Positions 11,737 through 56,790 of a stretch of DNA of 64,000 nt are shown piece after piece. Under the pieces are notes generated by a model. That model did no database searches, was not told the origin of the DNA, and was given only the letters and a program-made list of their open reading frames with translations. Numbering within the stretch: the stretch's first letter is position 1; the number at the start of each line of letters is the position of its first letter. This stretch comes from Thermodesulfobacterium geofontis OPF15 (GTDB taxonomy: Bacteria > Desulfobacterota > Thermodesulfobacteria > Thermodesulfobacteriales > Thermodesulfobacteriaceae). Location: positions 1,426,001 to 1,490,000 of the forward strand of contig NC_015682.1 of assembly GCF_000215975.1 (NCBI RefSeq), read 5' to 3'. The position numbers were made by a program, and so were the translations under genes.

Positions 11737-12924
11737 ATGGAAGTCCACGTAATTTTCCTTTATCTTGCCATTCTTTTATTTTTTGCAAGGCTTACAGGAA
11801 ATATTTTTGCAAAATTTGGAATTCCCTCTGTTCTTGGTGAAATTTTTGTTGGAATTCTTCTTGGACAAAGTGTTTTTGGAATAGTTCCTCTAAATGATAT
11901 AATAAGGCTTCTTGCTGAAATGGGCATAATATTACTACTTTTCCATATTGGTCTCGAAGCAGATTTAAAACAATTGAAGCGAGTAGGCTTTTCAGCTACT
12001 ACTGTTGCTATTACAGGGGCTTTATTTCCTATGATAGCAGGGTTTTTTGGTTTCCTATTATGTTTTTAAATATCCATTTATCGCAGCGCTATTTATTGGT
12101 GGTACACTTACCGCAACCAGTATCGGAATAACTATGAGAGTGCTTGAGGATATTGGAAAAATAAGGGAAAGATTTGCTCAGATTGTTTTAGGAGCTGCAG
12201 TTTTAGACGATATATTTGGAGTTATTCTTTTAGCTTCGCTTTTTGAATTCTCTAAATATCAAGAAATAAATATAAATGCTATAATGTTACTACTTTTTTA
12301 TATTGCAACTTTTTTCTTTTTTGCTCCTATTATTGGTAAAATTCTTGCATACATTGTAAGTTTTATATCTAAAAGACTCCAAACTCTTGATTTTATTCCT
12401 CCGGTGGTTGTTGCTATAATACTTCTTTTCGCTTATGCAGCTCATGAAATAGGTTCCCCTGAAGTTCTTGGTGCTTTTCCTGCTGGTATAGCTTTTTCAA
12501 GAAGATTTACAATTCCCTTTGCAGCAACTTTTCAGACAGATGAAGAATTTATTCATAAAATTGAAGAAACTTTAAAACCTCTTATATGGCTTTTTACTCC
12601 TATTTTTTGTGTTTATGTAGGATTGCAAATAAATTTAAAGGTAATCAATCTCGCTTCGTTAGATTTTTGGATATTAAGTTTTGTTTTGCTTTTTATCGCA
12701 ATTGTAACTAAATTATTTGCAGGATTCTTTATAAAAGGTGACTTAAAAGAAAAGTTAAGTGTAAGATTTTCAATGCTTCCAAGAGGTGAGTGGGTTTAAT
12801 ATTTGCAGAATTTGGAAGAATAAGCAAAATTTATAACGATGAGCTTTATGCAGTCATCATTTTTGTAGTAGCTCTTACTACTCTTATTTCGCCTATTGTG
12901 CTTAAGCGTTTGTGGGAGGAATAA
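11737..12924 (+). pseudogene. Kef/NapA-type (CPA2) cation:proton antiporter, interrupted by two frameshifts
   Basis: Three frame segments together make one CPA2 antiporter of about 395 residues. Segment 1 (11737-about 12045) has GIPSVLGEIFVGILLGQSVFG and LLLFHIGLEADL. Segment 2 (about 12047-12790) has GGTLTATSIGIT, GAAVLDDIFGV (the ion-binding Asp-Asp) and SPEVLGAFPAGIAFS. Segment 3 (about 12790-12924) has GLIFAEFGRISKIY...LTTLISPIVLKRLWEE. The first break sits in a six-T run near 12040 and is repaired by removing one base. The second, near 12790 (PRGE/GLIF), is repaired by adding one base. The rest of the coding sequence is well preserved, so recent loss or sequencing error are both possible. 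Confidence 0.85.
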
Positions 12925-12929
12925 AATTT

Positions 12930-13003
12930 TGGAGATGAGGGGATTCGAACCCCCGACCTCCGGAGTGCGATTCCGGCGCTCTCCCAAGCTGAGCTACATC
13001 CCC
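12930..13003 (-). tRNA. tRNA-Ala (anticodon CGC)
   Basis: The minus strand folds as a full cloverleaf. The acceptor GGGGATG pairs with CATCTCC, including the G3:U70 wobble that identifies alanine tRNAs. A GCTC/GAGC D stem follows. The anticodon stem is CCGGA/TCCGG with loop ATCGCAC (anticodon CGC), and the T arm has loop TTCGAAT. Discriminator base is A; CCA is not encoded. It lies five bases from the end of the antiporter remnant. Confidence 0.95.
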
Positions 13004-15912: not shown

Positions 15913-16954
15913 ACTTACCCAAATGACTAAAGCTTCAGGTTGAGCAGCAAAACTTCCACAAGAGTTTCTTGTGGAAATATTAAAAGATCTTGAAATACCC
16001 TCTCATCCCTATTTAATCCAAAGTTTTGAATATGGTGCCGATGCTGCTATTTTTAAAATTAATGAAAACACTGCTCTTATCTTCTCAGCAGATTTTTTCA
16101 CTCCGGTAATTGATGATCCTTTTGTCTTTGGGCAGATATCTGCTGCTAATGCCCTATCTGATATTTATGTATGCGGAGGTAAACCACTTTTGGCCTTAAA
16201 TCTCATCTGCTTTCCTAAAAAGGGTATACCAAAAGAAATACTTAAAAAAATTTTAGAAGGTGGACTTTCTAAAATAAAAGAAGCTGGAGCATTTCTTGTG
16301 GGTGGACATAGTATTGATGATCCAGAACCTAAATATGGCTTAGCTGTTGTTGGAATAGCTCATCCAGAAAAAATTATTAGCAACAAAAATGCTAAAGAAG
16401 GCGATTTACTTTATCTTTCTAAACCCATTGGTTTAGGAATACTTGTCACTGCTTATAAAGGAAATCTTTTAGATGAAAAGAGTAATATCTATAAAGCTAT
16501 GATAAAAACTATGACAGAACTTAATAATAAAATAGCTGAAATTTTACTTGAACTTGATATAAAAGCAGCAACAGATATTACAGGATTTGGACTTTTAGGA
16601 CATGCCTTGGAAATGGCAATTGCAAGTAAAAAAGATTTAATTATTTATGCTCATAGGGTCCCCTATTTTAAAGAAGCAAAAGATTTTATTGAAATGGGGA
16701 TTATTCCAGAGGGAGATTATAACAATTTAAATTATTGTAAAAAAAATGTAGAAATCCATCCTGAGGTTTCAGAAAATGATCTTATTCTACTTTGTGATGC
16801 CCAAACTTCAGGAGGTTTTTTAATAGCTGTGCCTCAAGAAAAACAGGAAGTTTTTGAGAAAAAAGCAATAGATGCAGGACTTAATAACTTAGCTCTTATC
16901 GGAGAGGTTAAAAACCCAGAAGGTCACTGCCCCACTGTAAGAGTATATCCTTAA
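15893..16954 (+). CDS. selD: Selenide, water dikinase (SelD), selenocysteine-containing through in-frame UGA
   Basis: SelD makes selenophosphate for selenocysteine synthesis. Reading from GTG at 15893, after AAAGGAGAT, gives MNVQEIKLTQMTKASG, then TGA at 15941-15943, then AAKLPQEFLVEILK. The protein continues in frame for 353 residues including Sec17. UGA sits exactly at the catalytic Cys17 position of E. coli SelD, with Lys20 conserved. Downstream FGQISAANALSDIYVCGG, FLVGGHSIDDPEPKYG and ATDITGFGLLGHALEM are typical. A conventional gene caller would start at 15971 and lose the catalytic N-terminus. Starts within the end of mogA. Confidence 0.95.
15954..15976 (+). promoter_or_regulatory. Bacterial SECIS hairpin of selD
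   Basis: TTCCACAAG (15954-15962) pairs perfectly with CTTGTGGAA (15968-15976) around the loop AGTTT. The loop starts 20 bases after the UGA codon and has G at its second position. Known bacterial SECIS elements place the apical loop about 16-37 bases downstream with G among its first two bases. Confidence 0.85.
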
Positions 16955-20001: not shown

Positions 20002-20160
20002 AAAATATTATACTACCAAATTTTTTTATTTAAAACTTATTTTAATTAATATTTCCAATAAATTGTTTCTAATTTAATTTAAATTTTTTATTTGACTTTT
20101 TTCATAATATTTTTGAAAATTTTCCTTTTAAAGGATCAAAATAAAAGGAGGTGGGGGGGT

Positions 20161-23100
20161 ATGGATATTAGATTGACAAGAAGGGATTTTTTAAAGTTAT
20201 CCATAAGTTCTTTAGTTTTAAGCTCAATTGGAATTAATTTAGAACCTGTTAAGGCTTATGCAAAAGAATTAAAGATTAAAGATGCCAAAGAGACTACAAC
20301 CATTTGTCCTTATTGTTCTGTTGGATGTGGAATTATTGTTTATTCTAAAGGGGGAAAGGTAGTAAATACAGAGGGAGATCCTGATCATCCTATTAATGAG
20401 GGTTCTCTTTGTCCTAAAGGAGCTTCTCTTTATCAGCTGGCAAATAATCCAACGAGGGTTTTAAAACCTTTATATAGGGCACCCTATTCTGATAAATGGA
20501 AAGAGGTTTCTTGGGACTGGGCTCTTGATAGGATTGCAAGATTGGTAAAGTCTACCAGAGACAAATACTTTATAGTTAAAAATGAGAAGGGGCAGGTTGT
20601 AAATAGAGTTGAGGCAATTGCTCATCTTGGTTCAGCTGCCCTTGATAATGAAGAATGCTATATTTTACAAAAATTAATGAGAGCACTTGGTCTTGTTTAT
20701 ATAGAACATCAGGCACGTGTCTGTCACAGTCCATCAGTTCCTGCCTTGGCAGAATCTTTTGGTAGAGGAGCAATGACCAATCAATATATTGATATTAAAA
20801 ATGCTGATGTAATTTTGGTAATGGGTGGAAATCCTGCTGAAAATCATCCTATTTCTATGAAATGGATCCTTAGAGCTAAAAAAGAAAGAGGGGCAAAACT
20901 TGTGGTTGTTGATCCTAAGTTTACAAGAACTGCATCTCAAGCTGATCTATATGTTCCTATTCGTCCAGGAACTGATATAGCCTTTCTTGGTGGTTTAATC
21001 AAATACATCATTGATAATGAGCTTTATTTTAAAGATTATGTAGTTAATTATACAGATGCAAGTTTCTTAGTAGATCCTAACTTTAAAGATACTGAAGATT
21101 TAGGTGGTGTATTTTCTGGATTTGATCCTGAGAAAAGAAAATATGATAAAGCAACCTGGAAGTATCAAGTTGATGAAAATGGAGTTATAAAGAAGGATCC
21201 CACTTTAAAGGATCCAAACTGTGTATTTCAATTATTGAAAAAGCATTATTCAAGATATACCTTAGATACTGTTTCTGCAATTACTGGTGCTCCAAAGGAA
21301 AAGTTACTTAAAGCTTATGAGATTATTGCGGAAACAGGAAAGCCAAATAAGGTAGCGACTGAATGTTATGCTATGGGATGGACTCAGCATACTGTTGGTG
21401 TTCAAAATATAAGAACCATGGCAATTATCCAACTTCTTCTTGGAAATGTGGGAATGGCAGGTGGTGGAATTAACGCTTTAAGAGGAGAATCAAATGTTCA
21501 GGGTTCAACTGATATGGGACTTCTTTTCCATATTTTACCAGGGTATTTACCTACACCAAAGGCTTCCTGGGTAGATTTAAAGACTTATATTGAGAAAAAT
21601 ACTCCTAAAACTAAAGAGCCAAAGAGTTTAAACTGGTGGAAAAATAGACCTAAGTATATAGTAAGCTTACTTAAAGCTTTTTATGGAGATAATGCAACTC
21701 CTGAAAATGATTTTTGTTATAGTTATTTACCTAAGCTTGATGATGACAAACAGTATACTTGGTATGATCTTTTTGATGCTATGTATAAAGGTAAAATTAA
21801 GGGATTCTTTGCTTGGGGGCAGAATCCAGCTTGTTCTTCTGCAAATGCTGGTAAAGTAAGAACTGCACTTTCTAAGCTTGACTGGTTAGTTTGTGTAAAT
21901 CTCTGGGATAGTGAGACAGCCTCATTTTGGAGAGGACCTGGTATGGATCCTAAGAAGATAAAGACTGAGGTATTTTTACTTCCAGCTGCAGCATCCATTG
22001 AAAAAGAAGGAAGTATTACTAATTCTGGAAGAATAGCTCAATGGAGATATAAAGCAGTAGAACCTCCTGGTGAGGCAAGACCTGATGCAGAGATTATAAA
22101 CGAGCTTTATAAGAGAATTAAAGCACTTTATGCAAAAGAAGGTGGAGCTTTTCCTGATCCTATACTTAAGCTTAATTGGAATTATGGAGACAAACATGTT
22201 GATACAAAGCTTATAGCTAAGGAATATAATGGATATTTTACTAAGGATGTTACTGTAGGGGATAAGTCTTTTAAGAAAGGAACTCAGGTTCCCAGTTTTG
22301 TATTTTTACAGGATGATGGATCAACTGCTTGTGGAAACTGGATATATTCTGGTAGTTATACAGAAGAAGGAAATATGATGGCAAGGAGGGAAAAGGTTGA
22401 TATAGCTGGTCTTGGGCTTTATCCGAAGTGGGCATGGTGTTGGCCGGTTAATAGAAGAATTCTTTATAATAGAGCAAGTGTTGATCCTAATGGTAATCCT
22501 TGGGATCCTCAGAGACCGGTTATTAAATGGGATCCTCAAGCTAAGAAGTGGGTTGGAGATGTTCCTGATGGACCACAGCCACCACTTGCAATGGAAGGAG
22601 GAGTATTACCTTTTATTATGAAACCTTCAGGTGTAGGAACTATATTTGGAGCAGGTCTTGCAGATGGTCCATTCCCCACTCATTATGAACCTGTAGAATC
22701 ACCCTTTGAAAATCTTCTTTATCCAAAAGTTAGATTTAACCCAGTTGCAAGAATTTTTAAGGATACACCTCTTGATAAGATTATACTTGGTGCTGATCCA
22801 AAATATCCTTATGTTGCAACTACATATAGAGTTACTGAGCATTGGCAGACAGGGCTTATGACGAGAAATATGCCTTGGTTACTTGAGCTTCAGCCTCAGG
22901 TATTTGTAGAAATGAGCAAAGAATTAGCAAAGGAACTTGGAATTAAAAGTGGAGATAAAGTAATTGTTACTTCTCCAAGAGGAAAGATTTGGGCAATAGC
23001 AATAGTTACTGAAAGAATTAAACCTCTTAAAATTATGGGGCATACTTGTCATGTTGTAGGAATACCTTGGCATTATGGATGGAGATGGCCTGAAGATGGA

Positions 23101-23202
23101 AGTGGTGGAGATAGCGCTAATCTTTTAACTCCACCTGCATATGATCCAAATACTTCTATTCAGGAAACTAAATGTTTTGCAGTAAATATAAAAAAGGCAT
23201 AG
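20161..23202 (+). CDS. fdhA: Formate dehydrogenase catalytic subunit, Tat-exported, cysteine form
   Basis: A 1013-residue molybdo/tungsto-bis-MGD enzyme of the FdnG class that oxidises formate outside the cytoplasm. The start at 20161 follows AGGAGGTGGG and gives a twin-arginine signal (TRRDFLKLS). Then come the [4Fe-4S] motif CPYCSVGCG...SLCPKG and the active-site loop ARVCHSPSVPAL. Cys188 (TGT) occupies the place of selenocysteine in E. coli FdnG. FGRGAMTNQYIDIKNADVILVMGGNPAENHP follows. The C-terminal MGD domain has MSKELAKELGIKSGDKVIV. Paired with fdhB 17 bases downstream; no cytochrome b subunit is adjacent. Confidence 0.95.
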   Translation: MDIRLTRRDFLKLSISSLVLSSIGINLEPVKAYAKELKIKDAKETTTICPYCSVGCGIIVYSKGGKVVNTEGDPDHPINEGSLCPKGASLYQLANNPTRVLKPLYRAPYSDKWKEVSWDWALDRIARLVKSTRDKYFIVKNEKGQVVNRVEAIAHLGSAALDNEECYILQKLMRALGLVYIEHQARVCHSPSVPALAESFGRGAMTNQYIDIKNADVILVMGGNPAENHPISMKWILRAKKERGAKLVVVDPKFTRTASQADLYVPIRPGTDIAFLGGLIKYIIDNELYFKDYVVNYTDASFLVDPNFKDTEDLGGVFSGFDPEKRKYDKATWKYQVDENGVIKKDPTLKDPNCVFQLLKKHYSRYTLDTVSAITGAPKEKLLKAYEIIAETGKPNKVATECYAMGWTQHTVGVQNIRTMAIIQLLLGNVGMAGGGINALRGESNVQGSTDMGLLFHILPGYLPTPKASWVDLKTYIEKNTPKTKEPKSLNWWKNRPKYIVSLLKAFYGDNATPENDFCYSYLPKLDDDKQYTWYDLFDAMYKGKIKGFFAWGQNPACSSANAGKVRTALSKLDWLVCVNLWDSETASFWRGPGMDPKKIKTEVFLLPAAASIEKEGSITNSGRIAQWRYKAVEPPGEARPDAEIINELYKRIKALYAKEGGAFPDPILKLNWNYGDKHVDTKLIAKEYNGYFTKDVTVGDKSFKKGTQVPSFVFLQDDGSTACGNWIYSGSYTEEGNMMARREKVDIAGLGLYPKWAWCWPVNRRILYNRASVDPNGNPWDPQRPVIKWDPQAKKWVGDVPDGPQPPLAMEGGVLPFIMKPSGVGTIFGAGLADGPFPTHYEPVESPFENLLYPKVRFNPVARIFKDTPLDKIILGADPKYPYVATTYRVTEHWQTGLMTRNMPWLLELQPQVFVEMSKELAKELGIKSGDKVIVTSPRGKIWAIAIVTERIKPLKIMGHTCHVVGIPWHYGWRWPEDGSGGDSANLLTPPAYDPNTSIQETKCFAVNIKKA

Positions 23203-51963: not shown

Positions 51964-52173
51964 TTAAAAATTACAACTTAAAGATAAAATTAGGTTTTCT
52001 TTAAGCTTTTCAATTTCTTCTTGATATTCCTTTGCTGGTCTTTCTATACCACAGGTAAGACACCTTACCTTAGCATTAGCTCAAGTTCCTTCTATAACTG
52101 CCTTACCTCCGCAGTATTTACAAATAAGGTGTCCTTTATTATCTTTGTTTTCAAAAAAATCAAACGAACTCAT
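51964..52173 (-). CDS. Candidate novel selenoprotein: 69-residue zinc-ribbon-like protein with in-frame UGA
   Basis: ATG at 52173 follows a GAGGGAG ribosome site. The frame reads MSSFDFFENKDNKGHLICKY, CGGKAVIEGT, TGA (52081-52083, codon 31), ANAKVRCLTCGIERPAKEYQ and a charged helical end, stopping at TAA (51964-51966). The UGA lies between CKYC (18-21) and CLTC (38-41), where a metal or redox residue is plausible. The code after UGA is clearly protein-like and keeps the second CxxCG. A stem-loop (52053-52070) at SECIS distance follows. selD in this window is also UGA-containing. I recognise no family. The alternative is a nonsense-mutated gene. Confidence 0.7.
52053..52070 (-). promoter_or_regulatory. 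Candidate bacterial SECIS hairpin in the zinc-ribbon gene
   Basis: On the minus strand AGGTAAG pairs perfectly with CTTACCT (7 bp) around the loop GTGT. The loop begins 17 bases after the UGA and its first base is G, meeting the published distance and loop-G criteria for bacterial SECIS elements. The stem is inside codons 37-42 of the reading frame. Confidence 0.65.
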
Positions 52174-52328
52174 TTTTTAACTCCCTCTAATTAAAGTATT
52201 TTATAGGTTAACTATTTTTATTTTCTCGTCAAGAGACAATAAATACAAAAGGGAACTATTATGAAAGATATTGAAAGGAAAAACTATTGTGCTACTTTTA
52301 GGATATTCATAAAATTATAAATATAAAG

Positions 52329-56281: not shown

Positions 56282-56515
56282 GGAGGAAGCATAGCTTTAA
56301 CTATAAGTCCTACATCTACTCATCTTTTAAATGATGACGAAGAGGTATATACCTACTAATAGATGGTTAGTCTTTGGACCCATTTTGCTGCTATTGCTGG
56401 AGTAGGACCTTTAATTGGACCAGTTTTAGCTGCACAATTTGGATATCTACCCGGTTTTTTCTGGATTTTAATCAGAGGCGTTTTAGCAGGAGCTGTACAC
56501 GACATGGTAATACTT
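56282..56515 (+). pseudogene. Fragment of carbon starvation protein CstA
   Basis: Joined over frameshifts, the plus strand gives [19 protein letters not shown] and [20 protein letters not shown]...[24 protein letters not shown]. These correspond to the [41 protein letters not shown] core of CstA peptide/pyruvate transporters. At least two frame changes occur (near 56355 and 56382). After DMVIL (about 56515) similarity stops abruptly, so only about 70 of about 570 residues remain. The flanks, 56058-56281 and 56516-56790, show no intact gene. A minus-strand stretch near 56600-56710 reads LASGITSFENPFEAELVVNL before a stop, and I do not recognise it. Confidence 0.75.
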
Positions 56516-56790
56516 TTAAGAATTGATTTTCTCTTAGCTCTTGTCAAAACTATGTTAAAAAGATTTATAACCTCTATTGCTTTATTTTCTAAATCCCTTT
56601 CTGAGTAAATCTTCTACTAAATTAACTACAAGTTCAGCTTCAAAAGGATTTTCAAAAGATGTAATTCCACTGGCTAAGAATGTAACTTTTCTAAATTAAT
56701 TGTCAAAAGTACAAAATAAAATGTGATAAGTTACGTAGAGATGGTATAATGTATTAGTTTAAATTTTATATTTAACTTTATGAGAAAATA

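Follow-up and report, generated by a model that had tools for sequence, protein, structure and literature searches.

The genome of Thermodesulfobacterium geofontis OPF15 very probably encodes a 69-residue selenoprotein with two CxxC motifs which belongs to the NCBIfam family NF041197 (CxxC_Se_CxxC, dual CXXC motif small (seleno)protein). The probability of this assignment, which is drawn from sequence comparison, is put at about 0.93. The gene is a well-supported new member of a catalogued, functionally uncharacterised family, and its novelty is modest. It lies in a window of 64,000 nt, the whole stretch of DNA analysed here (positions 1426001–1490000 of the 1.63 Mb single-contig genome), where it occupies 51964..52173 on the minus strand with its ATG at 52173..52171 and its TAA at 51966..51964. 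Translated with TGA as selenocysteine (U), this frame (52173..51964) yields the protein MSSFDFFENKDNKGHLICKYCGGKAVIEGTUANAKVRCLTCGIERPAKEYQEEIEKLKENLILSLSCNF. An earlier note on this DNA had described the 69-codon gene and a ribosome site without naming the strand; both were recovered, the Shine-Dalgarno-like site AGAGGGAG at 52181..52188 (GAGGGAG, 5' of the ATG at 52173), and the strand is minus. A plus-strand reading of 51964–52173 was rejected, as there is no coding of the gene there.

The frame contains a single TGA, codon 31 (52081..52083, minus strand), which lies between two CxxC pairs as previously claimed, and it stays open up to the TAA. The first knuckle, Cys18-Lys-Tyr-Cys21, is encoded at 52111..52122 and the second, Cys38-Leu-Thr-Cys41, at 52051..52062, both on the minus strand. 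Their cysteines are invariant in the alignment, and the OPF15 layout, CKYC-x9-U-x6-CLTC, is likewise kept across the aligned relatives, supporting the proposal of a zinc-ribbon-like CxxC...U...CxxC protein. In a small number of members the first knuckle reads CxCG, and these also carry U at the selenocysteine column.

Comparison with relatives strongly indicates that the UGA at codon 31 is recoded. A homologue of the OPF15 protein is present in 29 of 41 genomes of the order, nearly always with a single TGA located at the codon-31 column, and a broader phylum sample contains family matches in 112 of 395 genomes, most of them with exactly one TGA. In every aligned sequence inspected, this column holds U or C, never Trp, and neither TAA nor TAG. 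Homologues with Cys at the column, for which the earlier note had proposed a search, exist at two loci (L092 and L093) within the OPF15-like subfamily A, and many Cys forms occur in a second subfamily, B. Across 26 order sequences, pN/pS (Nei-Gojobori proportions) is 0.38 for codons 18–30 and 0.38 for codons 32–57; the part downstream of the UGA is thus constrained as protein to the same degree as the part upstream.

A candidate SECIS hairpin is located at 52053..52070 on the minus strand, consisting of a 7-bp stem (AGGUAAG/CUUACCU) closed by a GUGU loop at 52063..52060. The perfect 7-bp hairpin with its GUGU loop had been noticed before, along with a distance of 17 nt from the UGA; this distance holds for the loop, which begins at the 18th nucleotide, and not for the stem, which begins after 10 nt at the 11th. 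The published bacterial model specifies a loop of 3–9 nt with G in its first two bases, a stem of 4–16 bp, a spacing of 16–37 nt and an MFE of at most -7.5 kcal/mol (PMC13188914), and the OPF15 element, whose 48-nt fold has an energy of -13.5 kcal/mol, fits it in loop, stem length, spacing and energy. Judged on the OPF15 sequence alone, the fold energy departs from that of synonymous recodings of the same peptide with z = -2.1 and p = 0.02. Among 26 order sequences, all stem pairs are formed (182/182), as against 138 +/- 4 (maximum 153) under a null of 2000 recodings, in which each peptide was written with synonymous codons from its own locus.

All 25 distinct order sequences are fully paired and reveal one compensatory pair: across the 26 order sequences, codon 36 and codon 39 covary at their third positions between A-U (11) and G-C (15) with zero broken pairs, both changes being synonymous. 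None of 500 shuffles attained the covariation score of the 25 distinct rows, and the pairing is lost when the partner is slid. Arg37 is AGG in 26 of 26 order sequences, a codon which makes up 12–38% of Arg codons in those loci, while third positions are freely variable in the codons that immediately flank the stem. In Cys-encoding genes, the stem pairs at the OPF15 position are not kept. The comparison thus strongly indicates that the hairpin (52070..52053) is under selection as RNA, and the SECIS-like character ascribed to it in the earlier note is borne out by the fit to the published model and the order-wide conservation of the stem. Rfam SECIS_1 (RF00031) gave no match in the OPF15 genome and likewise zero in every control genome, and an Rfam scan of the gene region returned nothing usable.

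In subfamily B and in relatives outside the order, the best hairpin lies 6 nt further on, with its loop at +24 and usually GGA or GUC. Both registers, +18 and +24, obey the bacterial model, but several +24 elements do not individually rise above the synonymous null, and the second register is therefore less firmly established. Within a single orthologous family, the loop is found at +18 in Thermodesulfobacteriales (L048–L074) versus +24 in further families of the phylum (L095–L110), a difference of two codons.

The default reading of a single in-frame stop is that it is an ordinary stop, which would leave a peptide of 30 residues, or the decayed remains of a zinc-ribbon gene, beside an incidental hairpin, and the OPF15 hairpin on its own surpasses synonymous recodings only at the p-value given above. 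This reading is nevertheless very improbable, given a UGA kept across genera and families, the Cys orthologues, the lack of TAA or TAG at the column, the equal pN/pS on both sides and a stem which covaries at synonymous sites. Chance is untenable, since 26 relatives conserve not only the UGA but also the protein sequence that follows it and the stem. Another residue or a stop at the column, absence of selB or selC, and loss of the stem had been named in advance as counting against selenocysteine, and none of these was found.

The OPF15 genome has a complete set of selA, selB, selC and selD, including the three genes that the earlier note had proposed to look for. The tRNA-Sec was detected at 78.8 bits and called tRNA-SeC by ARAGORN, SelB at 393.9 bits over cutoff and SelA at 622 bits over cutoff. 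SelB was found in 30 of 30 well-completed genomes of the order, and the only UGA carriers of the phylum sample without a detected SelB are two partial genomes, G042 (67% complete) and G113 (76% complete). Since roughly 90% of the genomes in the phylum sample have SelB, its presence alongside the UGA has little discriminating power and is consistent with selenocysteine, not decisive. By analogy with established bacterial selenoprotein biology, SelB would bind the hairpin at 52070..52053 and deliver Sec-tRNA(Sec) to the UGA. A UGA followed by a hairpin can in principle also promote read-through with another amino acid, by near-cognate Trp or other suppression, but relatives with Cys and never Trp, the full selenocysteine machinery and a hairpin that fits the SECIS model make such decoding highly unlikely. 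Selenocysteine at codon 31 is thus strongly supported by the machinery, the UGA/Cys-only column and the fully paired stem.

The selD gene, located inside the window, is itself a selenoprotein gene as had been stated, with an in-frame TGA at 15941–15943 on the plus strand (...TKASGUAAKLPQEFL...) and its end at 16954; a standard ORF call begins only past this TGA. A formate dehydrogenase-like large subunit (20092–23202, plus strand) carries Cys (ARVCHSP) despite the use of selenocysteine by the genome. In formate dehydrogenase large subunits, selenocysteine often occupies the site that is Cys in ARVCHSP.

The suggestion in the earlier note that no described family has this architecture proved wrong, since the protein matches NF041197 above its curated cutoff and the family bears two published names. 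With C in place of U, the OPF15 protein scores 44.1 bits against a cutoff of 40 over 51 of 53 positions, and in a genome scan with the TGA left as a stop it scores 35.2 bits; the model also recognises each of the 15 proteins in alignment A2. A 2026 review maps NF041197 to the hypothetical protein OS_HP3 (motif RxU), from a 2007 study of an Olavius symbiont, and also to the hypothetical protein DW (motif GxU), from deep-Sep in 2025 (PMC13188914). DW was reported from Desulfosarcina, a member of the same phylum as OPF15 (PMC12013277). The example accession of DW, SMF39960.1, was assigned to OS_HP3 in a 2022 review (PMC9312934), so that the two names overlap. An identity as Lar restriction alleviation protein (PF14354/TIGR03655) was considered and rejected, scoring 19.1 versus 28.6 and 18.4 versus 39.6 bits, below the curated cutoffs, and PriA or primase zinc ribbons also fell below theirs.

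Reading of individual loci adds two subfamilies of the same architecture to this picture, both with the identical spacing CxxC-x9-[U/C]-x6-CxxC; the two SECIS registers and a common C-terminal Cys as a candidate resolver are likewise added here. Subfamily A is OPF15-like with a GxU motif, and subfamily B carries RxU or RxC and ends in CDRI/L or IIYD. The OPF15 protein shares the NF041197 layout and the exchange of selenocysteine for Cys at the same column, but its subfamily lies near the cutoff of the model, whereas the top scorers (RxU/RxC with CDRI or IIYD ends) belong to a branch of their own that is often represented in the same genome. With its GTU (EGTU31), it resembles DW, a likeness based on the motif and on the shared model, to which the 2026 review assigns DW. 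OS_HP3 (Zhang and Gladyshev 2007, cited by PMC13188914 and PMC9312934) is likewise a small dual-CXXC selenoprotein matching the same NCBIfam model, but its RxU motif places it in subfamily B. About 30 genomes contain two matches, which in the genomes read are one A and one B. In the genomes of loci L092 and L093 and in G036 and G389, subfamily A is present as the Cys form and subfamily B as the selenocysteine form, which shows independent Sec/Cys switching of the two paralogues.

The neighbours of the gene are not conserved between the lineages examined. In OPF15, it adjoins what is, by eye, presumably rimP-nusA, while the neighbours are taken by eye to be dnaX-ybaB-recR in other Thermodesulfobacterium, topA in Thermodesulfatator and Thermosulfurimonas, and mrp in Caldimicrobium. 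Five genomes from other families presumably have dsrPOJ-like neighbours, and two have selD, again named by eye. At loci L105 and L110, selD follows the subfamily-A gene at a distance of about 0.5 kb, with a short ORF intervening; in L110, the subfamily-A gene is itself preceded by coaX. The position before rimP-nusA is not conserved in relatives and therefore carries no functional hint, in agreement with the earlier note. Among the loci examined, there was no recurrent neighbour pointing to a pathway and no recurrent metal-resistance genes. A phage or plasmid origin was rejected, with no tblastn match in phage or plasmid collections. Elsewhere in the window, a cation/proton antiporter-like gene (11737–12990, plus strand) is split over frames at 11737–12069 and 12047–12799 and returns to the first frame for its tail, and is thus frameshifted or mis-sequenced. 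A plus-strand ORF of 81 aa (56363–56608) seems to resemble part of the carbon starvation protein CstA and is probably a gene remnant.

The gene product would be a cytoplasmic zinc-ribbon selenoprotein of 69 residues in which Cys18, Cys21, Cys38 and Cys41 likely bind structural zinc or another metal. AlphaFold2 predicts strands at 24–28, 35–38 and 44–46 and a helix at 51–68 (mean pLDDT 66, core about 79), and places Sec31, at moderate confidence, in the loop that joins the first strand to the second, off the knuckles. In a zinc ribbon, this loop forms the tip of the hairpin, on the opposite side from the metal knuckles. A Foldseek search against solved structures returned no significant match, only sub-significant zinc-ribbon matches (best E 0.22), and with a model of moderate confidence the fold and the placement of selenocysteine at the tip are accordingly tentative. 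The alignment has a weak profile match to eS27 zinc ribbons (best E 9.9e-5) and the model a weak one to Pol III subunit I chains (E 0.22), both of which have the same two-knuckle ribbon plan. These eS27 and RNA polymerase small-subunit ribbons differ from the OPF15 protein in lacking selenocysteine and significant full-length homology, and in being other proteins in another context.

A Cys located 24–46 residues past the selenocysteine is common, though not invariant in the family. It is found in 35 of 42 Sec-type members of subfamily A and 6 of 7 Sec-type members of subfamily B, and 15 of 24 Cys-type members of B have a Cys in the corresponding range, all counts ignoring kinship. In OPF15, this candidate resolving thiol is Cys67 (51973..51975, minus strand), and in many members such a Cys could resolve a selenocysteine intermediate through an Se-S bond. 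Sec31 itself, at the predicted ribbon hairpin tip and not among the metal ligands, may act as an exposed nucleophile or redox group. The predicted placement of Sec31 and the C-terminal Cys counts together favour a structural metal plus an exposed, possibly Cys-resolved selenocysteine, and the specific proposal that Sec31 is an exposed redox group with a resolving Cys stands at roughly even odds.

The main rival to this exposed-selenocysteine chemistry is that Sec31 is a direct metal ligand, such that a soft metal or metalloid would be bound or delivered via the CxxC, Sec and CxxC sites in place of structural zinc and a redox selenocysteine. Five invariant chalcogen residues fall within 24 positions, and for several selenoproteins that are implicated in resistance to metals, selenocysteine has been noted as a possible ligand of the metal (PMC13188914); the position of Sec31 in an inter-strand loop away from the knuckles (AlphaFold2, moderate confidence) and the lack of recurring metal-resistance genes nearby argue against it, and a ligand role appears rather unlikely. 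The most likely function is a thiol-redox or soft metal/metalloid-handling role. A more speculative and comparably doubtful extension of the exposed redox reading is that the family represents a new mini thiol/selenol redox class built on a zinc ribbon and not on a thioredoxin fold, with Sec31 at the tip, a resolving Cys, and a SECIS element shifted by two codons while the UGA stayed fixed.

The gene offers a cleanly supported example of a SECIS element being selected at synonymous positions within a coding region, and with it the range of an uncharacterised selenoprotein family extends across the thermophilic Thermodesulfobacteriales. Moreover, the division into two subfamilies, the Cys that may act as resolver and the tip position predicted for the selenocysteine lead to testable ideas on why a zinc ribbon may need selenium.
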